From Romanomermis culicivorax (Eukaryota > Nematoda > Enoplea > Mermithida > Mermithidae), in NCBI GenBank assembly GCA_963922205.1, contig CAWUHX010000018.1, positions 868,001 to 932,000 on the forward strand: 64,000 nt of DNA, written 5' to 3'. The translations under genes and the position numbers were made by a program. Shown in pieces: positions 857 to 49,974 of the stretch. Every line of letters starts with the position of its first letter. Positions within the stretch are counted from its first letter, which is position 1. Below the pieces are notes generated by a model. It was given only the letters and a program-made list of their open reading frames with translations, did not search any database and was not told the DNA's origin.

Positions 857-1126
857 CCGTCTTGTGACTACTGCCCCAATTTCATATTTCTAAGGCATTT
901 GATAATAATCTAATTCTGGAGAAAGATTAAGTTGAGGTTCATCACCTGAACAATATGTTGAAGTTTCTGTAGCTGTGGCCATCTTCACAAAAGTGAAGAC
1001 TCCTACAGCCCCATCGACTTTATTTCCTCTGAGTTTCTGAAGTTGAATCACCAAAACTTTGTGATTTTGGTTAATAATTTCATCTTCAGCTGGAGATTTC
1101 GATTCCTCTTTCTGGGATATGAGTTC

Positions 1127-1550
1127 CTATTTTGGTGGCGACTTTCCCTTGTGCTCATCAGGCTCTTCTTTCCTTGAAAGAAAGTCTGCCATGGCATTTT
1201 GCCTGCCAGGCACATATTCCAATTTGTGGTTGAACTGGCAAACAAATGCATACCACTTCTTGAGCTTGTGGTTAGTCTGTGTATTGACCCTCATTGATAA
1301 TAATGGTTTGTGGTTAGGTTGAATTATGACCTTCTGACTGAAAAGATAGTGTTTATAGATTTTATGGCCATAAACCACAGCTAAGCATTCCCTTTTGGTG
1401 GTGCACCATTTCCCTTCCTCTGCCTGCAATATCCAACTCTTGTAGGCTATAACCCAACATTCTGAGTCATTCTCTTGGCATAACACTGCTCCCACTGCAA
1501 TTCCACTGGCATGGGTTTGAAGGATGAATCAGACAGATCCATCAAAAATT
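1127..1550 (-). pseudogene. RNase H domain of the gypsy-like element, catalytically degraded
   Basis: Recognisable RNase H blocks are GAVLCQ, ECLAVVYG, NHKPLLS and AMADFLSRK. In the adjacent frame (about 1,500-1,550) the first catalytic block reads FILQTHAS where the family has a TDAS-type motif, so the first Asp is His. The later block usually written TDHKPL reads PNHKPL, so a second acidic residue is also lost. A frameshift separates the first block from the rest. This is a dead copy. Confidence 0.75.
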
Positions 1551-1555
1551 GGATG

Positions 1556-2400: not shown

Positions 2401-3147
2401 TCACTTTGCTACATGTCTAGCATTTCCTGTATCTATCTTGCATGTTAGAGCTGGAGTTGTAGTTGCAGGATCACCAAGCAAGCTGAACACATCTTTATAC
2501 TAAAACAGAGATTCTATCAATTTCAATTTCTGCTCTTCTGCAATCTGCTTTGGATATATTTTTGCATAATGAATTATAAAATTCAAGAGAATTTGACTTT
2601 GATCCTGTATTCTTTTCTTCCTTCACCATACAAGTCTGATATTCTTCCTCCTCCTTTATTTTCTCCATATTCTTTATCATTTTGTACACATCATCATCTT
2701 CAACTAATATTGATTCTGTATAGCCAATGATTTCATCTCACTCAAATGGACAACCAGAACATGTATTATTTGATATCAATACCACAAATGAATCCTGTGA
2801 TCCGTCTACTACAGCTTTCTCAAATCTGAACTTGGTTTCAGAATCCCTTGATTCTACTATAATTCCATTAAATGTAGCATCTCTATGTTGATCTCAAAGT
2901 TTTGCCTTCATCAAAGCATCTGTACCATATGGAATGTAAGTTTTCCCACATGCCACAATGGAAACAGTTGATTTTAGAAGACACACCTTCAGCTAAACAT
3001 TTTGAATTCTGCTATCAGCCTACACTGCACTAACCTTGGGTGCTTCTTCCACTGCTGTTTGCACAGTAGTTACAGAAAGCAACTGAACTACATCAATGGA
3101 TTTCTCAATGCCTTATATGGTCATGGTATTTCATTTGAAATCAATGA
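2401..3147 (-). pseudogene. Protease-to-RT spacer of the gypsy-like element
   Basis: This stretch lies between the protease and RT remnants. It holds only short minus-strand frames, for example an acidic/lysine-rich one at 2,495-2,689, and no motif that I recognise. It is probably the decayed inter-domain region of pol. The left break of the 8.36-kb tandem duplication (2,564) falls here. Confidence 0.5.
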
Positions 3148-3780
3148 TTACACCAAGATCTGGTTGTGCCAAAAAATTGTGCCTAGAATTAGGTCTTCAC
3201 CTGCATCTGGCAACACAAAAGCATTAACTGGAAAATGACCAAATTCAGCTTTCATACAAAATGGTACATACGCAAAATCATGCACAATTTTTCCATTGGG
3301 AACAGTCACCTTAAGGATCTTCGGATACACTGTATAGTCTACGTCTAGTGCCTTCTTCAAAAGTTTGGCATACATAACTGTACACTGTGCTTCTGTATCA
3401 ATTAAGGCTCTTGTAGTTATCTCTACAATAATCACATTGATATAAAATGGAACCATCTTTGGATAATTCTCCAATAATCTATTCTCTAGGTCCATAACCT
3501 GCCTTCCATATTTGACATGAGCCAAATCTTTACTCTTGACCTTTTCTTGATGTGTCTGCTTATCCACGTGAATAATACTTCCTAGGATCAAATTTTTACA
3601 TTTAACCCTAATCAGTTTACTTTCGTCATTCACATCAGCTCGGCTTGTAGCCATAACATTATGTGAATTTGACTGTGATTGATTTTGAACAAATGATCCA
3701 GTCTGATCCCAGACAGTATTAGCCTGAATTGCTGGTTGAGGAGTTGATGCAGGTAGCATCAACTGAGGCTGCCTTTGCAA
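3148..3780 (-). pseudogene. Retropepsin-like aspartic protease region
   Basis: A 210-codon open frame contains ALIDTEAQCTVM, which has the layout of the retropepsin active site but with Glu where the family has Gly in Asp-Thr-Gly, and later DLILGTIFW, which matches the second conserved block (ILG-x-x-F-hydrophobic). The Gly to Glu change in the catalytic loop should inactivate the enzyme. The N-terminal 90 residues are Gln/Ser-rich and probably belong to the end of gag. An identical frame lies 8,357 bp downstream. Confidence 0.65.
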
Positions 3781-5768
3781 CTGAATACCTTGCTCTCTAA
3801 GTCTGTAAAATTCCTAACATATCTCTCAAACTCTGGGTTATACCCATAAGTTTGATCTTCTTCCTGAAATCCTACATAATAGGCACCTCTACTCCTTTCT
3901 CTAAATCCAAACTCTGGACTAGCTCTTCCTCCAAACTGCCCTCTGAATGAAGCACCTCTGTCTTCACCATGATACTGATTCATCATGCCATGGTTAAATC
4001 CACCTCATTGCTGTTGTCAACAATATCTAAAAGCTTTACAATCATCCATTGCATGACTATTATTCTTATGGTAAATACAGCAAGGTTTCTGGTGCTTAGC
4101 TTTCTTCTGCTTTTCAGCCGATGCAGGTTGCTTGGCAGTAGTCAAGTCCTTCAAAGCCTCATTCTGGGTAGTTTGAAATTTATCAACCTTTTCACTAACC
4201 GTAACCACTCCTTTGATAGAATAGCTAAAAATGACTCCTTGGCCTGCTCCTCATTAGTCTATTTGACATCACGAGTTGACGGGCCACATTGCATTTCTTT
4301 ACTATATCCATCACTCCTTTGATCCTCGACTGCCTTTGGCAACTGATTTTGTGGTTTTGCCTTAATTTGGTTATACTTTTTAGTACTTCCATACTGAGCA
4401 TTCCCTACAAAAGCAATTTATGAGCCTGTTCCTGAGTAGCTACTATTTGGTTGATCACTATAGGTTTATCCTTGGCTCCAAAAGTAGTAAAAACATTCTT
4501 ATATTTCTTATCAATCTGAGTTACATCATATGCAAGGTATTGCCATGTTTTCATTCATGACAATACATACTGCAACTCCATCTGATACAATGGACTACTC
4601 TTATAAATATAGGCATTAATAATATTCTCTTGCCTGACTTGATCTGTTTGATCTCTGTAGACCAGAGCTACATGATTACTCAATCTCTTTAAAAATTCTA
4701 GAGCTGATTCTTCTTCTTCCTGTTTCATATTGAATAGCACTCTTTTGAGAATCATCAAGTCCTAAGTCAGTGCTAGGTACTTTAAAATATTTCTCCGTGC
4801 TTCTGTATAACTTGCTGATGTTCTTGATATCCTCCTTGCTGTATTTTGAGACAATCTCCTCAAACATTCTTTCTTGATCTTATCAGTGGTATTTTCCAAA
4901 AACTCACTTTCCAGGTCAATGAAAAATTTGAGCACTTCAGTTGGCTTTATGCTGTCATGTAAAGATCTATGTTTCAGGGCCTTTACAACATCTCTTACAT
5001 CTACCTCTACACTTGAGCTAGAGTTTGTTGTTGAAGAACTACTGGAATCACTATCTGAATAGTGTCTACTCGTAGATCTAGATCTATGTGATCTACTTCT
5101 ACTCCTTGATTTCCTTCTTTTTCTTCTCCCTGGGCTAGGTTCAGCTCTATTCGTGGTATCTCTCCAAGGTGCAGGACAAGAAAACCTGTCCTCTACTTGT
5201 GATGATTTTTCACAAATAATCACTTTCCTTTCCCTAGATTTTCGCATTTCTGAACAACCATAATCATTCAATTGTGCTTGTTCAGCATTCCCTGAACTTT
5301 CTGGTTCTTGACTCAGCAGCTTATCTCAAGCAGGATATCTATCCCTATTCTCATGTGATCTATGATAAATTTCTGTCTCAACCACTTTCTTAAGTTGATT
5401 TAACCCATCTGATCTCAATTCTGTGTAAGAAGACTCACTTATGTTCTTTTGCCGCTCCTTTTCATTTCCCTTTTCCCGATCTTGGGTATTTTCCAATACC
5501 TTTATTAATAAATCGACTTTCTTTGCTAATGTGTTTATTTGTAAAACTTTTCATCATCCCATCATAAACAAATTGGCCATGTCCACTTCATATCATCACA
5601 AATATCGATCACTAATTTGGTGGGCATGTCCTCGTTATAATCGTCCATATTCATATCGGTCAAATTGGATTTACATGCCAGTCTCAATTTCCATCTAACC
5701 TCCTCCAGCATTTCCTCCATTGGATGGACGATCCTCTGTGGCATCCTCAGTCTTTGCCTTTTCATCAC
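3759..5768 (-). pseudogene. Gag region of the gypsy-like element, broken into several frames
   Basis: Successive minus-strand frames give: an N-terminal acidic piece (5,562-5,768); an Arg/Ser-rich then Ser-rich stretch followed by a helical segment (4,762-5,271); a capsid-like piece with LEFLKRLSNHVALVY (4,555-4,758), read on from an overlapping frame; a zinc-knuckle-like motif CIYHKNNSHAMDDC (4,017-4,208), the C-x2-H-type knuckle seen in many gypsy Gags; and an Arg/Gly-rich tail (3,759-3,986). Stops separate the pieces. The capsid call rests on order and the zinc motif rather than strong similarity. Confidence 0.6.
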
Positions 5769-19275: not shown

Positions 19276-21640
19276 CGAAAGTAAGGCTCAGCCAAATCAT
19301 TCCTTCCTTTTCCAGGAAAATAAATCTGTTAGATTGGCTGATCACTGAAAAAATATGTAGGATTAATATAACTTTGTCAGGTGTAAAAAGTTGCCGTAAC
19401 TTTTGTATGCTCAATTGACAACTTTTGTTATGTCAAACCTAGGAACTTTGACAAATCAGGAGCACAACTTAGTTGTGTTTTATCATGCTTCGAGTCATTC
19501 AAATGTTGTGTTCTTTTTATTCAATAAATGCATCTACAAAAGTTGTGTAGGATTTACTCAAATTTATTTTTAACAAAAAATCGATGAACGAATCAGGTGA
19601 TAAAAGAGGTAATATTTTCACAAACATGGATTTTTTAACAAGGAAACGACCCGTCTTGACACTTTTGAGCAGTGGTTATTGAATCAACCAGCCTGGACAA
19701 TGGCTCTTTGGTAGAATTCTAAACCAAAGGGCGATGTAAAGTGCAAATTGAGGACGTAATGGTAAATATGTATACACAAAGCTGCTTACTTTGAATGTAG
19801 CGTAAATCCAAGATAATCCAACTAAAATAATCGACATAAATCAATACTGTGCAAAAAAGATTTAATAATTTTGATCTTATAGGTTTACAAGTTTGGATTC
19901 TTTAACAGAAGTTGATCGAGAGAATTTCGTCACTCAGGTGTTCCCAATGTCACATTACATACACACACGAATATATAGACTTTTTTATTCAACTTTTACC
20001 ACAGAATTTCGCCACAGAAGATATATCATTATTTTTGTTATCACGACAGCAAACAGAAACTTTTCAATAAAGTAAACGTGGTACTTTACTTTGACCTCAA
20101 TTGAAAAGATCAGAACTTTTTATATGTTCTGAGCAAAAATGCACTGGGCATAAATATGCATGCAAGGCTACCTGATGCTAAGTCAAAAGCCTAATTTTAG
20201 GTACAGGTTACAAAAGGACAAATTTTGGCCTCAAAAATTGCAGGGAATGTCTCAATAATACTTGTTCAAGACCCAAAAAGTCACAAAAAGGTTCTTTATG
20301 GCACTGAGCAACAAAAAAGCTTTTTTTCACAATTTGTTTGGTTAAAATTTGACCTTTTCCAGTCTAAAATCGACATTTCTCCCCCCTCCCCCCATTATGC
20401 TCTAATATGGACAAAGTTTGAACAACTGTGCTGACTTCAGAAGTGCCCTGACTCCCATTCTATTGTGGAGTTACGGATAAAATAGTATGTGATGACTCTT
20501 GGCTATGGGGGTTCTCATTGCATTTCATACTCCCATAATTGCATTTACATGTTTGGCCCGACTTATCATATTTCAAAGATCAATTTCGAAGTAACTTCAG
20601 ATAAAATTGTACAGGCTCAAATTCTACCAAAATTCTACGGAGTAAAGTTGATCAACTACGCAAAACAGACGCAGTATTTGAAATCAGTTCAAAACTAACA
20701 CACAAAATTTGAAATGTAGATGTATCATAGGACAGAAATCCAACACAGAATCGAAAAAAGTCGGTCTGAAATAACCTGCCATTAGAAAGGTTTTCAATAC
20801 CCCTTGCTTGACATTTGTGTATTTTGCTGATTTTAGGCTGGGTGTGTGGTGTGTGTGTACGTGTGTGCCGGATGTGCATATATTGTAACTGCAAAGTGTC
20901 AATATGCTTCTATTATTGCTTCATTTCTTTGTGCAAAAACATTATTGTGCATTGAAAAAGTTGTGCTAATCCTACTCAACATTTCTTGATCCAACTTCAT
21001 CATTTATGCACATAACTTATTTACGTTCGTACAACAATAAGGAACAAAACTGTTCAAATAACGCAACAAAGTTGAGTTGACCCATGAAGAACATAAAGAA
21101 GTTGTGTAAATCCTACAACTTTTTAACAGTGATATGGATCAACTACTAGTGTAGAAGTTGTGATAAACTTGGAGACGAAAAAAGAAGAACAAAGATCAAA
21201 AATAATCGAATAATTATCATTAAGTTGGTCAGAACCATCTGTGTGTCTCAATAGATGCTGCGGCTATTGAAACATGAACAACATGAACATTGATCAGAAA
21301 GATGATGAAAGTTGCCGACAATGGAAGGAAACCAATTAGAGCTTATTCACAATATACAAAGCGCGGTATAAGGGGATAGAGCAAAAAAAGTGTTATTTAG
21401 CATAAAAAATTCACCGGTCGTTTTACACATCAGTCAAAGTAGCGGTACAGTCAAGGTAACGGTACACAACACACTATTCATATAGTCCATTCATTTTCCA
21501 ATGAGTCTCGGAAGCCCAAAGAAATCCATAGATAGACAATGACGATGCATTTTCTTTTTTCAAGTTGTAGTTCTAACTGCTGCAGTCGATCTCAGAATGA
21601 GAAAGAGGCGCCCATGTACACATGTTACTTATTATCTGCA
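19276..21640. other. No recognisable gene; scattered inverted words
   Basis: AT-rich DNA. An inverted pair built on aaagttgtgtaggattta (about 19,540-19,560) and gtaaatcctacaacttt (about 21,105-21,122), and family E words at about 21,432-21,460 opposite those at 18,820-19,052, suggest remnants of another inverted-repeat element. A short GT-rich tract lies near 20,840-20,870. The short open frames show no known domain. Confidence 0.45.
21632..21640. repeat. Target-site duplication TTATCTGCA, left copy
   Basis: Nine bases directly before the left terminus of the giant element; identical to 46,392-46,400. Confidence 0.9.
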
Positions 21641-22760
21641 GGGTAGCACTAAAACCCGGATCGAGTCCACGGATCCGGATCCGGATCGGGTGCCTAAAAC
21701 CCGGATCACCACGGATCGGCGGATCCGCGGATCGGGGGTTTTGCTCGTTAAACCATCGTTTTAGGTGCCTAAAACCCGGATCACCACGGATCACGGCGGA
21801 TCAGTCCGGTGATCCGGATCCGTGGAAAATACGTCTAAAACCCGGATTTTCATCACGGATCACCCCCACAGATCGGGGTCCAATATATTAATTTTTGATC
21901 CGGAACCCAAATTTTTGATCCGATCAGATTTTTTTGATCTAGATCAAATTTTTTCGAATTTTTTCGTCGTGATGAGTATTTTAACGTCACATGTTCAGAT
22001 TTTGATCCAGATCAATATTTTTGATCCGGATCAATTTTTTTTTCTAATTTTCATCTAGATTAAATTTTTTCGAATTTTTTCGTCGTGATGAGTATTTTCA
22101 CGCTACATAATCAGATTTTGATATCAATATTTTTGATCCGGATCAAATTTTTTTTCAAATTTTCATCTAGATTAAATTTTTTCGAATTTTTCCGTCGTGA
22201 TGAGTAAATTGACGCCACATATTCAGATTTTGATCCAGATCAATATTTTTGACCCCGATCAAATTTTTTTTTCAATTTTTCACCTAGATTGGATTTTTTC
22301 GAAATTTTCCGTCGTGATAAGTATATTCATGCCACATATTCAGATTTTGATCCAGATCAATATTTTTGATCCGGATCATTTTTTTTCTTCAAATTTTCAC
22401 CTAGATTAAATTTTCCGAATTTTTTCGTCAAGATGAGTATTTTCGTGCCACGTATTAAATCTATGATCCAGATCTTATTTTTTGATCCGGATCAACTTTT
22501 TTTGACTCACACATAAATTTTTCGAATTTTTTCGTCAAGATAAGTATTTTTGCATCACGTATTCAGTTTTCGATCCAGATCACATTTTACGATCCAGATC
22601 AAATTTTTTTGATCTAGATCAAATTTTTTTGATCTAGATCAAAATTTTTGGAGATTTTTCGTCATGATGAGTATTTTCGCCTCACGCATTCAATTTTTGA
22701 TCTACATGACATTTGTTGATCCAATCCCAGACTATAATTTTTCGAATTTTTTTGTCACTC
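21641..22760 (+). repeat. Left arm of giant transposon: GATCCGG-rich end plus 7-8 tandem units of about 110-117 bp
   Basis: The outer 260 bp is rich in aaaacccggatc, ggatccgg and cacggatc words. Then a unit containing gtcgtgatgagtatttt, cagattttgatccagatc and tttgatccggatc recurs with starts near 21,966, 22,082, 22,194, 22,311, 22,427, 22,533 and 22,661. The short frames here are translations of the repeat, not genes. Confidence 0.9.
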
Positions 22761-27671: not shown

Positions 27672-27675
27672 GGTG

Positions 27676-28130
27676 TGTCACGGCCCAAGTGCAGAATGTG
27701 ACTCGGGTTCTTGTTCGAAGGTGAAACTAAGGCTAGCAAGTTTACTAACTTACTTTACTGGTGGCAAATACAATATGGACTAAACACTGACTTCTCACAT
27801 AAGAAGATACACAGCTTATATACATATCAAAAGTGGGTTAAACTTCACGGATGAATAATATGAATCAAACTAAGCATAAAAAATGTACGTAGATACTGTA
27901 GTTCTAAACTGGATACGAGAATACAAAATACGGTAGGAAAAGGCGTTACAGAAATGTACAATTCAGGGCGTAAAACTGATTAAAGGAAGCGTAGTAGAAA
28001 GATACGATTCAAAATGATTCATCAATGTCAAATAATAATATCAATAGTGTTTACTGTAATGTATACAGGGTTTCTGTCAAATAATAATATCAATAGTGTT
28101 TACTGTAATGTATACAGGGTTTCCCTGACA
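27676..28130 (-). repeat. 3' LTR (455 bp)
   Basis: Plus-strand ends are TGTCACGG and CCCTGACA, giving 5-bp inverted termini. Differences from the other LTR: one A fewer in the A-run near 27,880, and T instead of C near 28,015. It contains a 49-bp unit in tandem (28,026-28,074 and 28,075-28,123). Confidence 0.97.
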
Positions 28131-28145
28131 CGCCGCTCCTTATTT
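28131..28145 (-). other. Purine-rich tract before the 3' LTR
   Basis: The minus strand reads AATAAGGAGCGGCG just before the LTR and just after the TGA stop of the ORF. It is purine-rich but interrupted, so a weak version of a polypurine tract. Confidence 0.45.
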
Positions 28146-31100
28146 TCAAACGTCCTCGTTTGACAAGTCCTCGTTATCAGATTGTTCGATGTTCGGATCA
28201 ATAGGATGCATATTCGTTATTTCATTTCGATTTTCCGGACCATCCAATTGTCTTTTACGGTACGGTTTCGTACGATTGGCATGAATAACCTCGCGAACTG
28301 ATGGATCGTCGACCAATTCCATGATGATGTTTGGAAGAAGGATGCCTGTCACCCTGTATGGACCTTGATACATTGGCATCAGCTTCTTAATCAACCCTCT
28401 TCTGACCACCTGTGACTCCTTGAGAACCCAATCTCCAATTTTGTAGGTAACATGACATGTTTTTTTATCATACTGAAACTTGTACTTTTCTTGCGCATTC
28501 TCTACCTGCCTTTGGATGACTGTCAATGCATTCGTAAAATGTTTCTTGATTTCTTGCTCGTATCCCAACAAATCCATCATATACAATGGTGGTTGGTAGT
28601 TCAAAGCAGCATCTATTGGTAAAGCTGGATGTCTGCCAAAAATCAATTCAAATGGCGTGAAGCCAGTTGACTCGTTCACATGTGTGTTTGCTGCAAATTT
28701 AGCAAAGGGTACATGCAAATCCCAATCTGATTGATCATGGTTCACGTACATTCTCATTCGCACAACCAATGTTTGATTCATTCTTTCTATTTCACCATTT
28801 GCCATTGGATGATAAGCTGTAGTGTGTACTTTCTGTGTATCACAAATTTCTGTTATTTTGGTCATCAATAATGACACAAAGTCTGACCCTCTGTCTGATT
28901 GTAAGATCTTCGGACAACCATGCCGACAAACAATTTCATTGATAAACAGTTCTGCTATCGTATGCGCTGTTATGTTTTCTGTAGCAAAAGCTTCGACATA
29001 TTTTGTGAAATAATCAATGAATACCACAATGAATCGATTACCTCTTTCCGTCAATGGAAAAGGTCCCATACAATCTACGCCTAGTCTTTCAAATGGTCCT
29101 GTTACTTTTATAGGCTTTAATTCGGCAACTATCTTCTTTCTAGCCGATTTATTGATCTGGCACAACTTACATTCATCACAGAATCTGAAAATAGTCTTCC
29201 TCATTCCTGCCCAGAAATATCTCTTACTTATTTCCACATAAGTTTTCCTTGCACTGTAATGACCTGCTAATGGATCATCATGATATGACTGTAAAATCAA
29301 CGTTATCAACTTTTGTGGCACAACAATTTTCTTGCTGTCTTCATGAATCTTGTACAGTATCTCATTTTCAATCACAAATTCATCAGTATCCATTACATCA
29401 TGTTCATTCAATTTCTTTATGATTTCTTGTAATTCATGGTCCATTTTCTGCATCTGGCCCAAATCTACGCCATTACTCTTGCCTTCTGTAATTGTAGCAA
29501 TGGTTTTGTCTACCACATCGTTTTCCTCGATGTCAAAATGTACTTTACCCAAAGGATTTGGCAATCTTGACAAGCAATCAGCATTCTGATTCTTGGTACC
29601 TTTCCTTGGTTTAATTATCAGCTTGTATCCTGACAAAGCTAATCCCCATCTAGCAATTCTTGAAGACGGATTTTCCTTTTCTAACACCGCCTTGACTGCT
29701 GTGTGATCAGTTTCCACTGTCACTTCGTGTTCATACAAATACGGTCGGAAGTATTTTGCAAATTCTACAACTGCTAACGTCTCTAGCTCTGTGATAGGGT
29801 AATTCTTTTCGGATTTCTGAAGTACTCTACTAGCATAGGCTACTGGATGCTCATTACCTTCACTGTCCAACTGACATAAGATAGCTCCTATACCTTCCAA
29901 TGAAGCGTCGGTTTGTAAAATGAACGGCTTATTGAAATCTGGATGCTTCAGCAACGGAGGAGACAAAAGTTTATGCTTCAATTCCTCAAATGCTTTCTGA
30001 CAATCTTCCGTCCACTCAAAATTCACGTTTTTCCTCAACAATTTTGTTAAAGGTTCCATGATTTTTGCACAATTCCAAATGAATCTTCTGTAATAGGAAA
30101 TCAATCCAAGAAACAATTTCACTTCTTTTACTGTTCGTGGTGCTTTCATTGTTTCAATTGCCTCTAGCTTTTTCTTATCTGGTAAAATTCCTTCTTCTGA
30201 GACTCTGTAACCCAGATACTCCGTCTCTAAGTAACTGAACTTACATTTGCTCAACTTCAGCTTCATGTTTCCCTCACTAAGCCTATCTAGCATTTGTGTT
30301 AACCTTTCTACCATTTGCTTATGGTCTTTAGCAAATATTAAAATGTCATCTAAATACACTAGACATGTCTGCCATTGTAGACCTGACAACAAAACATCCA
30401 TCAGTCTCTGAAAAGATGCTGGTGCATTACACAAACCGAAAGGCAAGTAGTTGAATTCGTACAAGCCTATGGGTGTTGAGAATGCTGTCTTCTCTTTATC
30501 TACTTCTGCAATCGGAATTGACCAATATGCATTTGCTTGATCTAACGTTGTAAAATATTTCATACCATTCAGTGTATCAAGAATGTCATCAATTCTTGGA
30601 AGAGGATAAACATCTTTCTTAGTTACCTCGTTCAATCCACGAAAATCGATACACATTCTATGTTTACCATCTTTCTTCCTGACAAGCACAACATTTGTTG
30701 ACCATGGAGAAGTACTTGGTCTTATTACTCCATTTCCTATCAACTTTTTCACTTCTTCAATTACAATTTCCTTTTCCTTGGGTGATGTTCGATAAGGAAA
30801 TTTTCGGACTGGCTTACTGTCTCCCGTCTTTATGTTGTGTTTTACTAACTTTGTTCTACCTGTATCTTTATCCTCAACCGCATATAATGTCGGATATTTG
30901 CATAAGAGATCAACGATCTCCTTCCTCTCCTCAAGAGATAGCTCACTAGCTATTTTTGCATTTTCCTCTATCCATTGTCTCTTGTTATTATGGTTACTCA
31001 AACATTCCATGTTCACAATTTTTTGTTCATAATCAGCAAAAACTTTTACGTCACCAATTATCTGACCTTTGTAGAGTGTCACTCCACAATTTCGAGTATT

Positions 31101-31922
31101 CATTACTTGTAATGGAATTAGTCGGCTTTGGATTGCACTAATTGATCTGGCGAAAATCACATCTCCTACGTTCTTGGGTTCAAATATGATCTTAGCAGCC
31201 TTTCTATAGATTTCTGACACTAACCCATAAACCATTCTTACAGATCTTTCCGGAATATAGACATCGTGCGCCATCACCACTGCTCCTCTTTGTACTGGTG
31301 GATTATATACCATTCCATAACAATCAATTCTTTCTTTCTTGAAGGTTACTGTTGAGTCTGCCCAATTAAATTGAACATTTTTGAATCTATTCAGAAAATT
31401 TGTGCCCAGGATGACATCAGCTGAACAGTTCTTCTGAATGTACATGTTTACAGTTTCCAATACATCTCCGCATCTCACAGTTACGAATACACAACCTTCA
31501 ACTGGTATGTGTGTTCCGTTAGCTGCAATGGGTCTCAAAGTTGTTTCACAAATTTTCACTCCTGGCAACCTGCTCATGATATCATCATCGATCAAAGAGA
31601 AAACTGCTCCTGTGTCGATCAATGCACTAGCTTTCAAGTTATCATTGAGGATTATTGTCATATGAGGAGTTCTCAGACATCTTGTTGAACCAACTAGCAT
31701 TACAGTACCACTATTTTTTATGTTTTGACTGGTGGAAGCAAGTTCTGTCAACTCTACTTCCTTTTGATCGTCATTCACATTGGATGTAGTTCTCCTATTT
31801 CTTCTTTCCTGTCTAGCCCTAATTTGGCTTAATCTTAACAATGCATTTCCAAAGCTTTCCCGTAAGCTTTGTGTACGATTAAAATTTATTGCTGGTAAAT
31901 ATGAACCTCTACTCTGGCATCT
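28146..31922 (-). CDS. Pol portion: retropepsin, RT, RNase H, integrase
   Basis: These are the enzymes for polyprotein cleavage, cDNA synthesis and integration. The order PR-RT-RH-IN with a GPY/F-type C-terminal module (YQGPY) places it in the Ty3/gypsy group. The protease ALIDTGA is followed by VILGTNFL; RT contains all palm motifs with YLDD at genomic 30,345-30,356; RNase H keeps three Asp residues; integrase keeps HHCC and D-D-35-E. It is in frame with the upstream envelope-like part, so in an unspliced product the protease would follow the cytoplasmic tail of the glycoprotein. The tail of about 65 residues after GPY/F is acidic and ends at a TGA at 28,146-28,148. Confidence 0.95.
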   Translation of the reverse strand, partial: RCQSRGSYLPAINFNRTQSLRESFGNALLRLSQIRARQERRNRRTTSNVNDDQKEVELTELASTSQNIKNSGTVMLVGSTRCLRTPHMTIILNDNLKASALIDTGAVFSLIDDDIMSRLPGVKICETTLRPIAANGTHIPVEGCVFVTVRCGDVLETVNMYIQKNCSADVILGTNFLNRFKNVQFNWADSTVTFKKERIDCYGMVYNPPVQRGAVVMAHDVYIPERSVRMVYGLVSEIYRKAAKIIFEPKNVGDVIFARSISAIQSRLIPLQVMNTRNCGVTLYKGQIIGDVKVFADYEQKIVNMECLSNHNNKRQWIEENAKIASELSLEERKEIVDLLCKYPTLYAVEDKDTGRTKLVKHNIKTGDSKPVRKFPYRTSPKEKEIVIEEVKKLIGNGVIRPSTSPWSTNVVLVRKKDGKHRMCIDFRGLNEVTKKDVYPLPRIDDILDTLNGMKYFTTLDQANAYWSIPIAEVDKEKTAFSTPIGLYEFNYLPFGLCNAPASFQRLMDVLLSGLQWQTCLVYLDDILIFAKDHKQMVERLTQMLDRLSEGNMKLKLSKCKFSYLETEYLGYRVSEEGILPDKKKLEAIETMKAPRTVKEVKLFLGLISYYRRFIWNCAKIMEPLTKLLRKNVNFEWTEDCQKAFEELKHKLLSPPLLKHPDFNKPFILQTDASLEGIGAILCQLDSEGNEHPVAYASRVLQKSEKNYPITELETLAVVEFAKYFRPYLYEHEVTVETDHTAVKAVLEKENPSSRIARWGLALSGYKLIIKPRKGTKNQNADCLSRLPNPLGKVHFDIEENDVVDKTIATITEGKSNGVDLGQMQKMDHELQEIIKKLNEHDVMDTDEFVIENEILYKIHEDSKKIVVPQKLITLILQSYHDDPLAGHYSARKTYVEISKRYFWAGMRKTIFRFCDECKLCQINKSARKKIVAELKPIKVTGPFERLGVDCMGPFPLTERGNRFIVVFIDYFTKYVEAFATENITAHTIAELFINEIVCRHGCPKILQSDRGSDFVSLLMTKITEICDTQKVHTTAYHPMANGEIERMNQTLVVRMRMYVNHDQSDWDLHVPFAKFAANTHVNESTGFTPFELIFGRHPALPIDAALNYQPPLYMMDLLGYEQEIKKHFTNALTVIQRQVENAQEKYKFQYDKKTCHVTYKIGDWVLKESQVVRRGLIKKLMPMYQGPYRVTGILLPNIIMELVDDPSVREVIHANRTKPYRKRQLDGPENRNEITNMHPIDPNIEQSDNEDLSNEDV

Positions 31923-34900
31923 ATTAATGATTACCGAGTAGAATATGAATCCAATGATTAACAGAACCAGTGCAACAACAAGTGCATTGAAAATCAACTG
32001 AATTGGTCCCTTCAGTAAAGTATTCAGTCCTTCTTTCATATTTCGTCTCTCTGCATCAATTACGTGTTCTAGCGCTGATCCTGCGCCTATGGCACTTTTC
32101 TCTATGCCGGCTCCTATTCCAGAGAGCGTTTCATACAAAGTACCTGGCTGTAGTGACATATCTGCCTGATAATTCACTACATTTTTAACTATTCCTTCCA
32201 TTTCTTGCATTTTGTGTACATAATGCTTTAATGATGAAAATGCCATGGGCAAATTTCCTAGTTGATCATGGAAAATTGCTGGGCTGTTGAACTGAAAAAG
32301 TTTCGTTTGTCCTTTCCAAATTAGTTCTATTGGAATTGTACTAACGTGTACAGTACCAGATTTTGTTTTGAAACCTGCCCCATTTCGAAAAATTCCTGCA
32401 GTCTGATGATGACAGTCTATCACAGGACTATCTTTTATCAAGTCTACTGTACCAGGTACAACAAACAAAAGTTTATCATCAAAATGCACAGGCAAATATT
32501 TATAACACACATTACCGACTTTATAGGTGTCATAAATTTTACTTATGTTTACTTGCCGACAGGGCCATACTGTCAAAACTTCTCCTGTGAACTCTGCCGT
32601 TATATCATTGCGCTGCAATAGTGCTCTGACACCTAACGTTGCATCTACATGTACAAACTGCCATATCAAATCTAGATACCTTTGTACGTGATGGCACAGT
32701 TCCATCCATGTTTGTCGGAAATTATCATTTTCCAACCCAACTATTTTGTATTCCAAATAGTTTAGTTTCACATTTGTTGCATCATAATCACTAACATTTT
32801 CTGACTGTCCCATCAAATAGGGTTTCGGGGTTACTTTGTATTTCTTCCCATGTATTTTCACAACTATTCCCTGGCTTGTCCACAGAGCATTTGTGAATTG
32901 ATTTTGGCAGTAGGGGTAGGGATCTTTCAACTCCAAAGCTGCCTGTAACTCATTAACTATCACATGCTTGTTGCTCAATATTGACGTGTATTTTCCTTTA
33001 TAGATCACTGGGCATATGGCCTGAAACTCGGCAGCATCCCAAAGGATTACACCCTCCCGTGCCTCACAGCTGCCATCAATGGCGCGGCAGCCGCCCAAAT
33101 CACCAAGGTCGGTACTAATGTTGTGTCCATTGAATGAGGCAACCTGTCCTTCCTCAATCATGAAATTGCTAACATTCTGGCATGCTTCCGCACAACACCA
33201 TTTGTATTTCACCTCAAGTGATTTGTTTGTACTCCAAAATCCTTCAGACATCTGAATGAGTTTTTCATTTCCGTAGCTTTTTGTTCGAAAAGCTGTTTGA
33301 CAAGCTTCTTTGCTGACTGACTCAACCAATGTTTCATCATTCAAAACCCCTTTTGAACCAAAGAATCCGTTGAAAGTACAAATTTTCCTATTTCTGACAA
33401 AACATTTGTATGCTTTGGCTTGCAGAGGGTCAGTTCTTGGAACGAAAATGCTCACATCCACCCTAAATGGTCTCCTTTCCTCTTTCATAGGGGGCTTGCA
33501 TTCGACTGTCTTAGGAATGTCCAAAGCATGACCACTCTTGGACACACCACAAATTTGATAAGCGAAGCAAGTTTTACTAAGAAGCAACAAAAACACAATT
33601 GCAACACTTGCAACACCAACTTCTGATCTAATCATCGCCCGCATCATCTTCACAATCTGCAAAAGTACTATCACTGTCCACCATCTTATGAATTCAACTG
33701 TGGCAAAAATACTTTTCACTTCATCATCCATGTGATGGCTACCATCGTCCGAAATGGATTCGTTTTCCGAAATCGTCGATTCTATTCTGACCCCTTTGGC
33801 AGTCCTACGCTTAATGTTGGTTTTTTCAGGCATTACCTTTCCTTTACTTGGCACAAATTTGGCCGGTTTCATTGCTTTGATCGATTGATCTCTTCTGCCT
33901 TCATGAGTTGGGCATTCGACATTGCAAATGCACAATTTGCGTTCTATATTTAAAGAACAACTTTCACTCTCGTAATCATCAAAATCACGTTTAAATTTTC
34001 TTTTCGACCTATTATTCTCACAATTTTTTAAAAACTTTTCATTGGCTTTACATTCGTTGTTGTAGCCATTGAAGAATTCTTCTAAGTTGAACTCAATCAA
34101 ATCACTATAACTATCCGTTCTATTGCTGTTTGCAAAACTGCTGAATCTTCCAAAACTACCAGTAACAAATCCTTCTAGTTTCAACAGTAACTCCTTCGAG
34201 TTTTTGTCTGCCAGTATTACTTCCTGTTCTCTAGCATAATTTTGATGAAACTGGTCCAAATCAAAGTCAATCACTTCCTTCTCTTGTTCAGATTTGGCTG
34301 CTAACTTTGATACAGTGCCTAGCCAAATGCCTTTTGTTTCACCTTGGTTGTACGGTTTGTACTCCAATAGTGGCTGATCCTCCTCGAAAAACCAAGTCAA
34401 TTCAAGTTCATTGAATCTTTCAATGAACTCATTCATGTTTTCGTAGGGGCCCAACGCCTCCTTGGGTGGCAATGGCAGATTTGGAGGCTCCTGCCATGGC
34501 TCTTCATCGTCTCCTACTAGCTGAAAGCTGAATAAGGGTTTGACGTTGCTGTTGTCCTCCATCTCTATAACAAGACATGTTTCGTGGCCATATCGTTTTT
34601 CCTCAGTTTCAGTAGACAACAATGGGTCATCATAATCTAACTCATTTATGTTGATTTGATTCGACCTCCTAGGGGATCCACCAGAAGGTTTCTCCCTTGT
34701 CTGAAAAAATGTCTGTCCTATCCTATGAGCCTGCATGGTAGGCCTACTTTGAAACTTCTTACTATCTCTTCTCTGACTGGCCCATTCATTCTGTCTTTTC
34801 GGGCAATGCCGGGCGATATGACCAAGGTTGCCACAAACGTAGCATTCTGGTGCTTTGCAATCAGCCGTCACATGACTGTCGCCTTTGCAACGTAAGCAAC

Positions 34901-35840
34901 GCGGCTGATCATTCTTTTTGCTATTTTTTTGTACAATTAGTTGACGCAAATCATGCAGCTCTTTGCGCAAATCGTCCATTTCCCTGTTATTGTCTGAAGA
35001 AACAATATTTTGCCGAGGTATCACTTGTAGATCCTCCCGAAAGATCTGAGATTCAGCGTACCTAGCTGCTTTAGCTGCCTCTGTCAATGATGGGAAATCC
35101 CTGTATTTCAGTCCTTCATAGATGTTCGACTGAAGACCCCTTATAAAAATCGGTTTAAGGATTAGGTCCCTAGCATCTTCTCTCAATGTCGGGTATGCTG
35201 ACCTAGCCATCATTCTCAACTTATCTAGGTATTCCGTCACACTTTCTGTCCTTTTTTGCTTTCTGTCATAGATGAGCTGCTGGTGGACATCACTATCCCG
35301 ACCTTCTGGGTACATTTCCTTTAACCCTGCAACTAGCCCATCATATGTGTTTTGAATACCAGGATTCTTTCTTAACTCATGGAAAGATGCCAATGCACTT
35401 CCAATCAAATTAGATTCTAAAAATGCAACCTTGTATGCATCATCAAAATCGCTTATTCCTTGCAGAGTCATGAACTGCTGCAATCTATCTACCCAATCGC
35501 TCAATGATTCTCCAAATGAACCTGAGAAGGGTACTGGCGGCCTAAATGCCATCATTGAATTGAACCTCATTAGGGAATTTCTGACCCCTATATGAGTATC
35601 CTGACCCTGTTCAATTTTCAAACTCAACTGCTCTAGCCTATCTGCTAATGGAGCAGCAATATTTTCAAAAGCTTGCTTAACTGTCCGTTCCAAAGCCTTT
35701 GCTTCTTCCACCATATCTCTAACCTTACTTCTTGTCTGTCTGGGGGTGCTTAATTCAAGCTTTGCCTGGTCAATTATGTTCCGAAATTCGTCCGAAACTG
35801 AAGACTGTCTACCTTTGGATAATGAATCCAGATTACCCAA
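28146..35840 (-). CDS. Gag-Env-like-Pol polyprotein of LTR retroelement, 2,564 codons
   Basis: One uninterrupted frame. Residues about 95-265 are Retrotrans_gag-like capsid; CCHC knuckles are C315-C318-H323-C328 and C333-C336-H341-C346; residues about 350-715 are an acidic linker; 716-1,306 are envelope-like; protease has ALIDTGA (D1409); RT has LPFG (1,799-1,802) and YLDD (1,829-1,832); RNase H has TDAS (D1978), TDH (D2045) and NADCLSRLP (D2088); integrase has H2187, H2194, C2224, C2227, then D2256, D2316, E2352, and a YQGPY motif near 2,491-2,495. All catalytic residues are present. The frame begins without ATG: position 35,840 is TTG, an upstream stop is at 35,865-35,867, and the first in-frame ATG is codon 43 (35,712-35,714), which I take as the start. 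The unusual point is the envelope-like segment inside the frame. Confidence 0.95.
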   Translation of the reverse strand: MGNLDSLSKGRQSSVSDEFRNIIDQAKLELSTPRQTRSKVRDMVEEAKALERTVKQAFENIAAPLADRLEQLSLKIEQGQDTHIGVRNSLMRFNSMMAFRPPVPFSGSFGESLSDWVDRLQQFMTLQGISDFDDAYKVAFLESNLIGSALASFHELRKNPGIQNTYDGLVAGLKEMYPEGRDSDVHQQLIYDRKQKRTESVTEYLDKLRMMARSAYPTLREDARDLILKPIFIRGLQSNIYEGLKYRDFPSLTEAAKAARYAESQIFREDLQVIPRQNIVSSDNNREMDDLRKELHDLRQLIVQKNSKKNDQPRCLRCKGDSHVTADCKAPECYVCGNLGHIARHCPKRQNEWASQRRDSKKFQSRPTMQAHRIGQTFFQTREKPSGGSPRRSNQININELDYDDPLLSTETEEKRYGHETCLVIEMEDNSNVKPLFSFQLVGDDEEPWQEPPNLPLPPKEALGPYENMNEFIERFNELELTWFFEEDQPLLEYKPYNQGETKGIWLGTVSKLAAKSEQEKEVIDFDLDQFHQNYAREQEVILADKNSKELLLKLEGFVTGSFGRFSSFANSNRTDSYSDLIEFNLEEFFNGYNNECKANEKFLKNCENNRSKRKFKRDFDDYESESCSLNIERKLCICNVECPTHEGRRDQSIKAMKPAKFVPSKGKVMPEKTNIKRRTAKGVRIESTISENESISDDGSHHMDDEVKSIFATVEFIRWWTVIVLLQIVKMMRAMIRSEVGVASVAIVFLLLLSKTCFAYQICGVSKSGHALDIPKTVECKPPMKEERRPFRVDVSIFVPRTDPLQAKAYKCFVRNRKICTFNGFFGSKGVLNDETLVESVSKEACQTAFRTKSYGNEKLIQMSEGFWSTNKSLEVKYKWCCAEACQNVSNFMIEEGQVASFNGHNISTDLGDLGGCRAIDGSCEAREGVILWDAAEFQAICPVIYKGKYTSILSNKHVIVNELQAALELKDPYPYCQNQFTNALWTSQGIVVKIHGKKYKVTPKPYLMGQSENVSDYDATNVKLNYLEYKIVGLENDNFRQTWMELCHHVQRYLDLIWQFVHVDATLGVRALLQRNDITAEFTGEVLTVWPCRQVNISKIYDTYKVGNVCYKYLPVHFDDKLLFVVPGTVDLIKDSPVIDCHHQTAGIFRNGAGFKTKSGTVHVSTIPIELIWKGQTKLFQFNSPAIFHDQLGNLPMAFSSLKHYVHKMQEMEGIVKNVVNYQADMSLQPGTLYETLSGIGAGIEKSAIGAGSALEHVIDAERRNMKEGLNTLLKGPIQLIFNALVVALVLLIIGFIFYSVIINRCQSRGSYLPAINFNRTQSLRESFGNALLRLSQIRARQERRNRRTTSNVNDDQKEVELTELASTSQNIKNSGTVMLVGSTRCLRTPHMTIILNDNLKASALIDTGAVFSLIDDDIMSRLPGVKICETTLRPIAANGTHIPVEGCVFVTVRCGDVLETVNMYIQKNCSADVILGTNFLNRFKNVQFNWADSTVTFKKERIDCYGMVYNPPVQRGAVVMAHDVYIPERSVRMVYGLVSEIYRKAAKIIFEPKNVGDVIFARSISAIQSRLIPLQVMNTRNCGVTLYKGQIIGDVKVFADYEQKIVNMECLSNHNNKRQWIEENAKIASELSLEERKEIVDLLCKYPTLYAVEDKDTGRTKLVKHNIKTGDSKPVRKFPYRTSPKEKEIVIEEVKKLIGNGVIRPSTSPWSTNVVLVRKKDGKHRMCIDFRGLNEVTKKDVYPLPRIDDILDTLNGMKYFTTLDQANAYWSIPIAEVDKEKTAFSTPIGLYEFNYLPFGLCNAPASFQRLMDVLLSGLQWQTCLVYLDDILIFAKDHKQMVERLTQMLDRLSEGNMKLKLSKCKFSYLETEYLGYRVSEEGILPDKKKLEAIETMKAPRTVKEVKLFLGLISYYRRFIWNCAKIMEPLTKLLRKNVNFEWTEDCQKAFEELKHKLLSPPLLKHPDFNKPFILQTDASLEGIGAILCQLDSEGNEHPVAYASRVLQKSEKNYPITELETLAVVEFAKYFRPYLYEHEVTVETDHTAVKAVLEKENPSSRIARWGLALSGYKLIIKPRKGTKNQNADCLSRLPNPLGKVHFDIEENDVVDKTIATITEGKSNGVDLGQMQKMDHELQEIIKKLNEHDVMDTDEFVIENEILYKIHEDSKKIVVPQKLITLILQSYHDDPLAGHYSARKTYVEISKRYFWAGMRKTIFRFCDECKLCQINKSARKKIVAELKPIKVTGPFERLGVDCMGPFPLTERGNRFIVVFIDYFTKYVEAFATENITAHTIAELFINEIVCRHGCPKILQSDRGSDFVSLLMTKITEICDTQKVHTTAYHPMANGEIERMNQTLVVRMRMYVNHDQSDWDLHVPFAKFAANTHVNESTGFTPFELIFGRHPALPIDAALNYQPPLYMMDLLGYEQEIKKHFTNALTVIQRQVENAQEKYKFQYDKKTCHVTYKIGDWVLKESQVVRRGLIKKLMPMYQGPYRVTGILLPNIIMELVDDPSVREVIHANRTKPYRKRQLDGPENRNEITNMHPIDPNIEQSDNEDLSNEDV
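31923..33695 (-). CDS. Envelope-glycoprotein-like domain located between Gag and protease
   Basis: Two hydrophobic runs (residues about 720-731 and 741-756) precede a signal-peptidase-like site after KTCFA (A760). Then about 520 residues form an ectodomain with many cysteines and five N-glycosylation sequons (N872, N889, N907, N1015, N1098), followed by one strong transmembrane helix (about 1,283-1,305) and a basic cytoplasmic tail. The region from 905 to 995 (C-x5-G-x-C, EGVILWD, AICPV, TSQGIV) recalls mononegavirus/chuvirus-type class III glycoproteins captured by arthropod retroelements; no furin-site-plus-fusion-peptide layout of the errantivirus/baculovirus F type is seen. The viral class is tentative. 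The minus strand has a good splice acceptor (TACTTTTGCAG) at 33,657-33,658, ten bases before ATGATG (codons 732-733), so a spliced Env mRNA is possible. Confidence 0.7.
33656..33673 (-). other. Candidate splice acceptor for Env mRNA
   Basis: The minus strand reads GTACTTTTGCAG then ATTGTGAAGATGATG. The acceptor AG is at 33,657-33,658 and the first ATG of the Env-like region at 33,645-33,647. A possible donor (GAA, then GTAAGC) lies in the leader at about 35,888-35,889, upstream of the ORF. RNA evidence is not available. Confidence 0.4.
33696..35714 (-). CDS. Gag portion of the polyprotein, with long acidic linker
   Basis: Structural protein that would form the particle and bind RNA. The capsid-like domain starts FRPPVPFSGSFGESLSDWV and contains the typical gypsy-type helices up to about residue 265; a charged helix (about 286-305) precedes two CCHC zinc knuckles of the C-x2-C-x4-H-x4-C form. 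After the knuckles comes a basic stretch and then about 365 residues rich in Glu/Asp/Asn, with a basic cluster (KRKFKR near 614-619). The linker has no recognised domain and is unusually long for a gypsy Gag. It may include a protease-processed peptide or a nuclear-localisation signal; this is inference. Confidence 0.85.
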
Positions 35841-36316
35841 AACTTGAAAAGACTTATTAACAACTCAGAAGTGCTTAACTCAAGCTTACTTCGACCAACG
35901 TATCTGTTTTCCAACAAATCTGACGACTACCTTCTAATCAAATGAGCATACACTTGCTCAAATCTGTCTACTGAGTACTGTCCGTAAGTGAGACTTATCA
36001 CTTGACTTTGACTCAAGAGCACACAAAGGCTCAAATCTATCTGATGAGTACAGTGTTGAGTGACTAACTTAACCCACCAGGTAACTAACCCTTTTCGTTG
36101 TGAGAAGTTCCCTAAAGCCACTTAATTTAACTTCTGACTAACTGTCCTTTTTTCTTGAACACCTGCAATCAGACTTTTGTCTCAGACCCTTTGGTCAATG
36201 ATCAACGCCAAGCTTCGTCAACCTTCGAACTTAATCTACCCTTTCAGACACTCTGGTCCGAAAAACAATCTGACTTTCCGACTTCGGAATTCCTTCCTTT
36301 CCTTTCTTCCTTTCCT
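35841..36316 (-). other. Leader between primer-binding site and Gag ORF
   Basis: About 480 bases without a long frame. It contains the possible splice donor GTAAGC near 35,885-35,889. The packaging signal would be expected here. Confidence 0.6.
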
Positions 36317-36334
36317 TTCCCAGATGACCCCCCA
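36317..36334 (-). other. Primer-binding site, tRNA-Pro-like
   Basis: Four bases inside the 5' LTR the minus strand reads TGGGGGGTCATCTGGG. It has the TGG start required by a tRNA CCA end. It resembles the tRNA-Pro primer site of gammaretroviruses, with three mismatches over 16 bases. The primer identity is an inference. Confidence 0.6.
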
Positions 36335-36338
36335 AATT

Positions 36339-36794
36339 TGTCACGGCCCAAGTGCAGAATGTGACTCGGGTTCTTGTTCGAAGGTGAAACTAAGGCTAGC
36401 AAGTTTACTAACTTACTTTACTGGTGGCAAATACAATATGGACTAAACACTGACTTCTCACATAAGAAGATACACAGCTTATATACATATCAAAAGTGGG
36501 TTAAACTTCACGGATGAATAATATGAATCAAACTAAGCATAAAAAAATGTACGTAGATACTGTAGTTCTAAACTGGATACGAGAATACAAAATACGGTAG
36601 GAAAAGGCGTTACAGAAATGTACAATTCAGGGCGTAAAACTGATTAAAGGAAGCGTAGTAGAAAGATACGATTCAAAACGATTCATCAATGTCAAATAAT
36701 AATATCAATAGTGTTTACTGTAATGTATACAGGGTTTCTGTCAAATAATAATATCAATAGTGTTTACTGTAATGTATACAGGGTTTCCCTGACA
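36339..36794 (-). repeat. 5' LTR (456 bp)
   Basis: Partner of 27,676-28,130. On the minus strand a TATATAAG box lies at 36,478-36,485, suitable as the core promoter. The same 49-bp tandem unit occurs at 36,690-36,738 and 36,739-36,787, inside what should be U3. Confidence 0.97.
36478..36485 (-). promoter_or_regulatory. TATA box of the 5' LTR
   Basis: The minus strand reads TATATAAG, about 310 bp into the LTR from its U3 end. The 3' LTR has the same sequence at 27,815-27,822. Position is suitable for a U3 promoter; no experimental support. Confidence 0.5.
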
Positions 36795-36798
36795 GGTG

Positions 36799-45109: not shown

Positions 45110-46391
45110 TTCGGATCTGAATACGTGACGCCAACATGTGCCATGATGACGAAAATTGCAGTCTGGTCAAAAAATACAAAAAACCATTGATTCGGATCAA
45201 AAAATGTGATGTGGATCACAAATTGAACACGTGAAGCAATACTTTGCATCCCGATGAAATAATTCGAAAAATTTCAGTCTGGGTGAAAAAAAGTTGATCC
45301 AGATCAAAAAAAAAGATCTGGATCAAAAACTGAATGTGTGGCGCGGAAATACTCATCACGACAGAAAAATTCGAAAAAATTTAATCTAAATGAAAAATTG
45401 AAAAAAATTTGATCGGGATCAAAAATATTGATCCAGATCAAAATCTGAATATGTGACGTCAATTAGCTCATCACGACGGAAAAATTCGAAAAAATTTAAT
45501 GTAGGTGAAAATTTGAAAAAAAAATTTCTGGATCAAATACTGAAAACGTGGCACGAAAATACTCATCATGACGGAAAAATTCGAAAAATTTTGATCTAGG
45601 TCAAAAAATTTGATCTGGATTAAAAAATGTGATCTGGATCAAAAACTGAATACGTGATGCAAAAATACTCATCTTGACGAAAAAATTCGAAAAATTTAAT
45701 CTAGGTGAAAATGTGAAGAAAACAAAATGATCCGGATCAAAAATATTGATCGGGATCAAAATCTGAATACATGGCGTCAATTTACTCATCACGACGGAAA
45801 AATTCGAAAAAATTTAATCTAGATGAAAAATTGAAAAAAATTTTTCCGGATCAAAAATATTGATCTGGATCAAAATCTGATTATGTAGCGTGAAAATATT
45901 CATCACGACGAAAAAATTCGAAAAAATTTAATCTAAATGAAAATTTAAAAAAAAATTTGATCCGGATCAAAAATATTGATCTGGATCAAAATCTGAACAT
46001 GTGGCGTGAAAATACTCACCACGACGAAAAAATTCGAAAAAATTTGATCTAGATCAAAAAAATTTGATCCGGATCAAAAAAAGTTGATCCGGATCAAAAA
46101 AAGTTGGTCCGGATCAAAAATTTGGGTTCCGGATCAAAAATTTATATATTGGACCCCGATCCGTGGGGGTGATCCGTGATGAAAATCCGGGTTTTAGACG
46201 TATTTTCCACGGATCCGGATCACCGGACTGATCCGCCGTGATCCGTGGTGATCCGGGTTTTAGGCACCTAAAACCATGGTTTAGCGAGCCAAACCCCCGA
46301 TCCGCCGATCCGCGGATCCGTGGTAATCCGGGTTTTAGGCACCCGATCCGGATCCGGATCCGTGGACCCGATCCGGGTTTTAGTGCTACCC
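45110..46391 (-). repeat. Right arm of giant transposon, inverted relative to left arm
   Basis: Reverse complement of the left arm: about nine units with actcatcacgacg and gatcaaaatctgaat, near 45,140, 45,250, 45,350, 45,466, 45,560, 45,668, 45,783, 45,897 and 46,012, followed by the GATCCGG-rich end. Arm copy number differs from the left (about nine versus seven or eight). Confidence 0.9.
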
Positions 46392-46400
46392 TTATCTGCA
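46392..46400. repeat. Target-site duplication TTATCTGCA, right copy
   Basis: Nine bases directly after the right terminus of the giant element; identical to 21,632-21,640. Confidence 0.9.
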
Positions 46401-49325: not shown

Positions 49326-49462
49326 CTTAAAGCCGCTGACAGTCGTCGACTGAATCTTAGGAATCGGCGACAGTCAGTGATTTCACTCCTAAAAAAGGCT
49401 TTACCATTTCTGCTTAGGAATATTGATATAGCTACCAAATCAAATAGTTATAATCACGTTAC

Positions 49463-49875
49463 CTTATCCCAATGACCAATGAGGATCGAATAGTTGTGGA
49501 AGCTTATAGAATTTTTCAGATAATGCAACCTTTGCTTTGCGATGCCGGCCTGCATGGCTACTTTCACAATGTCGAACAATTTCTTCCAAACAGTTTCCAT
49601 TTCTTGATCGAAAGCATTGCCGTTCGTTCGATTGATATTCCACAGAGCCCACACCAAAGCATTGCCGAACAGGTCTACATGCGATTCTGTGACTCCATAG
49701 TAGAAATGCCGTGATCCCAAATCACCGGCCATATATTTGAGAGTGTGTTCGTTATTTACGAACTTGATTAGAGTGTTGAATGATTTTTCCAAATTGGCGA
49801 CATAATTTTCGAAACCGGGCGAATTTTCGGCGGCTTTATTAGTATTGTTGATACGGCCGAAAGGCCACAAGGGCC
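49463..49875 (-). CDS. Globin-like internal exon
   Basis: The minus-strand exon is bounded by an acceptor (CTATATTTTTAG, AG at 49,876-49,877) and a donor (GATAAG|GTAACG). The translation starts ALWPFGRIN, then a helix with FENYVANLEKS, then YMAGDLGSRHFYYGV, whose His fits the proximal F8 haem ligand, then VDLFGNALVWAL and FDQEMETVWKKLFDIVKVAM, matching globin helices G and H. The distal E7 position appears to be Tyr rather than His (FENY), a tentative reading. The exon covers about helices C to H and continues 25 residues past the fold. I did not find the upstream exon (helices A-B), which should be to the right, where repeats have inserted. No stop inside, so this may be a live gene or a recent fragment. 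Confidence 0.6.
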
Positions 49876-49974
49876 TAAAAATATAGGTAAAGTTGAATAG
49901 ACGCCAAGGGAAAAAATTAATGAGTTAATTTCGAAATAAGAAAGCGAACCGTGAAAAGTAATAAGGTTACTTCA

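Follow-up and report, generated by a model that had tools for sequence, protein, structure and literature searches.

Errantiviruses, gypsy-type retroelements with a captured envelope gene (env), carry that gene as a third open reading frame (ORF) after pol. In Burro, a group of giant gypsy-like planarian elements, env lies instead in frame between gag and pol, an arrangement that the 2019 account presents as without precedent (PMC6431247). The element considered here occupies 9.1 kb of a 64,000-nt window, the whole stretch of DNA analysed, from the nematode Romanomermis culicivorax (contig CAWUHX010000018.1). Like Burro, it is a gypsy-type long terminal repeat (LTR) element with a single ORF in which an in-frame env separates Gag from the protease, and the Burro env is described as resembling fusion glycoproteins of arthropod and fish mononegaviruses (PMC6431247). 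However, Burro elements exceed 30 kb, have an ORF1 of 4,873-5,140 amino acids and contain MATH, BCL2, SUMO-like, dUTPase and other domains (PMC6431247), whereas no Pfam match to such extra domains (apoptosis, ubiquitin, dUTPase) was obtained in the pieces of the present element scanned. The present family also includes diverse copies with long open frames and evidence of selection, a comparison made with the published description of Burro. An earlier reading of this DNA (the original prediction) had implied that env between gag and pol was a novelty; in view of the Burro precedent this was overstated (PMC6431247). The Gag-Env-Pol order is already known from Burro, and what is new is a compact variant of it, in a Ty3/Gypsy family with many subfamilies.

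Other captures differ in backbone or in gene order. Anakin elements of mosquitoes also carry a captured glycoprotein of the chuvirus kind, but on a BEL/Pao backbone (PMC7642597), whereas the reverse transcriptase (RT) of the present element best matches that of Ty3. As far as its account goes, a 2023 survey reports no clear Gypsy or Copia capture of chuvirus/bornavirus-type glycoproteins (PMC10084718). Dingle, from the annelid Dimorphilus, is a Ty3/Gypsy element with an env resembling herpesvirus glycoprotein B, but its env-like protein is encoded downstream of the integrase (PMC7854359). TelKA of bdelloids is likewise gypsy-type with a captured env, but this is paramyxovirus F-like and forms ORF3 after pol (PMC5408684). 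Cer1 of Caenorhabditis elegans has no stop between gag and pol and makes an extra protein from a spliced message that partly shares the polyprotein frame; however, the extra ORF follows pol and is described as acting in nuclear RNA export, not as an envelope (PMC10309623).

On balance, it seems fairly probable that a Ty3/Gypsy family captured a Monjiviricetes-type fusion glycoprotein, has retained it as an in-frame segment that follows the Gag zinc knuckles and precedes the protease and, in the subfamilies with ORFs of 3,018 or 3,100 codons, expresses it within a Gag-Env-Pol polyprotein.

Organization of the element

The element lies on the minus strand at 27,676-36,794, and all features described for it are on that strand. 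The 5' LTR (36339-36794, 456 bp) and the 3' LTR (27676-28130, 455 bp) differ by one substitution and one one-base indel, and CACC stands outside both ends (36795-36798 and 27672-27675) as a short target duplication. The near-identical LTRs of the original prediction were thus recovered, and the window copy is a young element. Each LTR holds a 49-bp perfect duplication (28026-28123 and 36690-36787). Just inside the 5' LTR is a primer-binding-site-like stretch starting with TGG (36317-36334), taken here to resemble tRNA-Pro.

A single open frame (28146-35840) contains, in order, the Gag capsid, zinc knuckles, a linker, a signal-like segment, a Cys-rich ectodomain, a transmembrane segment, protease, RT, RNase H and integrase. 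Its predicted length of 2,564 codons holds when the count starts at a TTG; from the first in-frame ATG, at residue 43 (35714), it is 2,522 codons. Judged from base frequencies alone, the chance of the whole ORF being free of stops is ~10^-84.5 and that of residues 716-1306, the env segment, ~10^-19.5; the other two frames of the same strand contain 55 and 43 stops across the latter. Domain order by Pfam, frame and features together confirm the central claim of the original prediction, an env-like segment in frame between the Gag knuckles and the protease. Only 15 nt separate the end of the frame from the 3' LTR, and the integrase has a GPY-type motif near its end; therefore env cannot lie after pol in the window copy. 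No second env match was found within the 64-kb window.

The capsid is represented by a Ty3_capsid match (residues 101-260; 35061-35540; Pfam E 2.6e-7), followed at about residues 315-346 by two CCHC zinc knuckles (34803-34898; Pfam and motif), the second of which is the zf-CCHC match. The linker (residues 350-715; 33696-34793) is rich in charged residues at 361-715 and gave no family above cut-off in the Pfam scan. Beyond env come the aspartic protease (31395-31634; Pfam and motif), with DTGA at residue 1409, the RT (30201-30683; Pfam 7.4e-37), with YLDD at residue 1829, RNase H (29625-30014; Pfam) and the integrase (28806-29321), with an HHCC motif at residue 2187; the motifs are present, in line with the original prediction. 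The integrase H2C2 zinc-binding domain (29145-29321) exceeds its Pfam cut-off, the rve core (28806-29096) is just under (31.7 bits vs 32.6), and the GPY-type motif lies further on. The nearest solved structure to the RT piece is Ty3 RT (9.4e-85), and the same kind of search with the protease piece returned nothing significant. The element belongs to Ty3/Gypsy (Metaviridae) by its protease-RT-RNase H-integrase order with a Ty3-type RT (assigned by best structure match rather than by an RT tree against named clades), its Gag with capsid and CCHC knuckles, and its two LTRs with a short target duplication.

The envelope segment

A signal-like segment (residues 741-759; 33564-33620; Kyte-Doolittle hydropathy, KD, 2.19) precedes the presumed start of mature Env at residue 761 (YQICG). 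The Cys-rich ectodomain (residues 761-1286; 31983-33560) leads to a transmembrane segment (residues 1287-1305; 31926-31982; KD 3.13), and residues 716-1306 carry 5 N-glycosylation sequons and 17 Cys. Hydropathy, sequons and Cys content agree with the proposed signal segment, glycosylated ectodomain and membrane anchor, which remain predicted features. Across 15 aligned copies, 16 Cys columns are kept in at least 14; by hydropathy, the signal-like segment is present in all 15 and the transmembrane segment in 14, the exception being C73, where the match ends before it (C126 has a stop inside it).

The ectodomain matches PF24664, Monjiviricetes_fusion (residues 920-1159; 32364-33083; E 4.9e-12, 45 bits vs a cut-off of 27), and BDV_G, the Borna disease virus G family (3.3e-9 for the whole piece, also above the Pfam cut-off; best stretch residues 1047-1242). 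Three of 20 sibling copies were scanned, and PF24664 is above cut-off and stronger in all three (3.4e-17, 3.4e-18 and 1.1e-19), while BDV_G is under its cut-off there. The proposed likeness to viral glycoproteins is upheld by these sequence profiles, which identify the ectodomain as a putative viral fusion glycoprotein of the Monjiviricetes type, that is, of chuvirus- or bornavirus-like negative-strand RNA viruses.

A family with a stable gene order

The env search of the source assembly (359 Mb, 595 contigs) gave 4,159 candidates, the best 74 of which were scored (weakest 6.9e-176), so that the genome contains at least 74 env matches. Open frames of at least 2,500 codons with no stop in the match are found in 23 of the 74, window copy included, and many have 3,018 or 3,100 codons. 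Twenty copies (given C numbers here) were picked, not at random, to cover env identities from 99% to 46%, and the window domains were mapped separately on their upstream and downstream stretches, with the two best matches per domain considered. Gag capsid lies upstream of env on the same strand in 18 of the 20 (not found in C104, on the opposite strand in C296), and protease lies downstream in 18 (not found in C73 or in C2, where RT follows further on). Both hold in 16 copies, including ones with env identity as low as 46%, and among the matches considered in the 20 copies neither RT nor integrase was seen upstream of env. An env placed after pol in the siblings, named in the original prediction as an outcome that would speak against it, is rejected for the copies mapped. 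LTR pairs of 96-100% identity were recognized in 12 of 21 copies, counting the window copy; in four others the stretch used was probably too short to include both LTRs, and the remaining five showed no pair.

Some copies carry additional protease-like domains. In C410 and C56, aspartic-protease-like domains stand in tandem, the first directly after the Env transmembrane tail. The extra domain of C410, between the transmembrane segment and the main protease, has DTG and ILG motifs of its own, is below the Pfam cut-off (0.00076), matches the main protease with E 6e-4 at 19% identity, and is joined to it by an Arg/Ser-rich linker; that of C56 is similar (Pfam 0.0025, below cut-off). In C473 and C10, a second protease-like domain lies between RNase H and integrase, ~2.49 kb after env (Pfam 0.0002 in C10, below cut-off).

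Thirteen pairs of copies were compared for the ratio of nonsynonymous to synonymous divergence (dN/dS); an env ratio was obtained for nine, three were saturated and one lacked synonymous changes. For C410/C124 (dS 0.09), dN/dS is 0.079 in env vs 0.096 on the protease-RT side, and for C410/C56 (dS 0.887) it is 0.094 in both. These are the two most informative pairs, and as both include C410, they are not independent. The env ratio is 0.053 for the window copy and C240, with few changes, and 0.21 for C56/C24. However, five younger pairs have env ratios of 0.33-0.58 (0.27-0.66 on the protease-RT side), which speaks against selection; these higher values are read as the result of little time for selection together with decay of dead copies. 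In the two informative pairs, the substitution pattern shows env to be under selection at a level like that of Pol. At the level of subfamilies, the trees built from env and from RT for 18 copies are congruent (Mantel r 0.822, reached by 0 of 2,000 permutations), but they disagree in deep branches, and close copies partly drive the correlation. Because of the deep differences, some exchange of env between lineages is possible.

Relatives of env exist elsewhere: two metagenome contigs of the Joint Genome Institute (P0003 and P0004; 4,216 and 9,699 bp) match it at 54-55% identity, and these fragments were the only matches of the env search beyond the source genome. A search for polyproteins with a longer piece revealed none outside the source genome among the 7,994 candidates scored, those sharing most words. 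Relatives were likewise absent from the genome contigs and phage records scanned, and none was confirmed in the viral contigs scanned.

Polyprotein or spliced message

For a Gag-Env-Pol polyprotein, the following course can be proposed. Gag would be translated in the cytosol, and an internal signal would then drive the ectodomain into the lumen, where signal peptidase could free its N terminus while the transmembrane segment would anchor Env. Protease, RT and integrase would continue in the cytosol and would be separated by the element's protease. Gag and Pol would meet on the Env-carrying membrane, and assembly of enveloped particles would be made easier.

The copies do not share a conserved start codon for a separate env. 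In C410 and C126, the 200 residues that precede mature Env contain no Met, and the nearest is at least 96 residues away in C337 and C147b and at least 98 in C56 and C24. As several subfamilies have no ATG near the signal, an internal signal within a polyprotein is favoured. In addition, no conserved frame-compatible intron that would remove env was found in four copies of 3,018 or 3,100 codons, with donors taken from the 1,800 nt before and acceptors from the 1,250 nt after at the thresholds used. The original prediction had offered a membrane-tethered polyprotein or a splicing-resolved variant; with few near ATGs and no conserved intron, the evidence leans towards the former in the 3,018/3,100-codon subfamilies, and the window copy fits a spliced Env-Pol better.

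Several observations weigh against the polyprotein. C124, which is closely related to C410, does have a Met inside the signal, 9 residues ahead of the mature start, and C126 and C515 carry upstream stops, so that the missing near Met in these two counts for little. Extra hydrophobic stretches (KD >1.5) precede the signal in 6 of 15 copies (the window copy, C473, C10, C114, C89 and C58), and the topology changes if they span the membrane. In the window copy, such a stretch (residues 712-730; 33651-33707; KD 1.6) would flip the topology of the original prediction if it too were membrane-spanning. The same stretch overlaps an acceptor-like site at 33656, with in-frame ATGs (residues 732 and 733) shortly after, an arrangement better suited to a spliced Env-Pol message and resembled by C89, C58, C114 and C73. 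In several subfamilies, strong donor-like sites also precede the capsid and follow the zinc knuckles, which suggests that splicing may also give Gag alone.

It is possible, but less likely, that Env comes from a spliced subgenomic message. A donor in the leader or LTR would be joined to an acceptor just before the signal to give Env-Pol (or Env, with a second splice), and unspliced RNA would give the long polyprotein as a by-product or as the source of Gag. Site 33656, ahead of its ATGs, is conserved in the window copy, C240 and C147a; in C114, C89 and C58, the exon after a 9.0-bit acceptor-like site would open with a Met codon of the env frame, and in C73 an acceptor-like site precedes a Met by 27 nt. 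Several copies have donor-like sites of 8-12 bits upstream of the capsid, and Cer1 provides a described parallel: its CERV protein comes from a spliced message and is read in part in the frame of the polyprotein (PMC10309623). However, sites of this kind are frequent (within 9.1 kb, 18 score 7.6 bits or more, 33656 included), and the presence of one near the window ATGs is for that reason weak evidence. In the 3,018/3,100-codon set, a single acceptor close to the signal is conserved, with a score that falls to 5.6 bits in the weakest copy, and an ATG nearby is lacking in C410, C56, C24 and C337. The splice-site scores come from matrices not trained on the source genome and are read accordingly. 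A spliced Env-Pol may thus operate in the window-type, C89, C58, C114 and C73 subfamilies, and the polyprotein is preferred in the 3,018/3,100-codon ones.

Removal of env as an alternative intron, spliced out in frame to leave an ordinary Gag-Pol, is improbable. Donor-like sites do occur close to the last zinc knuckle, 33-110 nt beyond the point where it begins, in C410, C124, C56, C24, C114, C89, C58, C473, C10 and C126, and in the first four a strong one is conserved at ~70 nt; such a site just behind Gag may make a Gag-only message. Conserved frame-compatible pairs above 6 bits number four in the C337 pair and seven in the window group, but in young groups these may reflect descent alone. 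None was found in the 3,018/3,100-codon set, the most diverged group tested, and none above 6 bits in the C89 group; in the window copy, C73, C337 and C147b, no such donor is among the four best.

It is very unlikely that the captured domain is a membrane protein merely resembling viral fusion glycoproteins. Solved-structure searches with env gave nothing significant, and AlphaFold models from three-row alignments were unusable (mean predicted local distance difference test scores of 32.2 and 30.3), which counts against the viral assignment. However, two viral glycoprotein families are above cut-off in the window copy, and PF24664 is so in the siblings scanned, although BDV_G is not. The sole solved-structure match to a nine-row env profile was glycoprotein B, a class III protein, at a non-significant E of 0.084; the metagenome relative P0003 matched it at E 0.02, and this likeness may be taken only as a lead. 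That a single copy was rearranged by chance, or received an endogenized viral gene as a dead insertion, has nothing beyond the unusual gene order in its favour. Given that 16 of the 20 copies mapped, from different subfamilies, share the order, that dN/dS is low in the informative pairs and that 23 of 74 matches lie in long open frames, this reading is refuted within the source genome and carries a negligible probability.

Other features of the window

Between ~2564 and 19000, a segment recurs in tandem 8,357 bp further on, and the repeat is exact for 1,365 bp starting at 2624; it is either a real duplication or an assembly artefact. Decayed Ty3/Gypsy fragments lie at 2-5325 on the minus strand, with an RT match 37% identical to that of the element, and a globin exon is found at 49454-49924 on the same strand (Pfam 2.4e-8), which points to an animal host. 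Arrays of ~116-bp units at 21640-22746 and 45178-46392, mutually inverted and ~24 kb apart, flank the element on both sides.

Implications

A more far-reaching proposal, possible though somewhat less likely than not, is that in an expanded clade of compact enveloped retroelements a single polyprotein is the sole source of Gag, Env and Pol. As this chain would have an internal signal and env would lack a start codon of its own, the three would be delivered to the membrane at a fixed 1:1:1 ratio as one threaded chain, cut in some subfamilies by two tandem proteases. Foamy viruses make Pol from its own spliced message (PMC7828637). If true, the polyprotein-only mode would be a retroviral type of expression and assembly unlike that of foamy viruses and of retroviruses with the gag-pol-env order.

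The family adds a Ty3/Gypsy carrier to the captures of chuvirus/bornavirus-type glycoproteins, one not clearly found for Gypsy in the 2023 survey as it is described (PMC10084718). It indicates that the Gag-Env-Pol order can be a stable, selected architecture in a Ty3/Gypsy family that is compact, comprises multiple subfamilies and includes copies with long open frames. Such a family offers a more tractable system for studying how a luminal glycoprotein arises in the middle of a polyprotein and how the ratios of Gag, Env and Pol are set.
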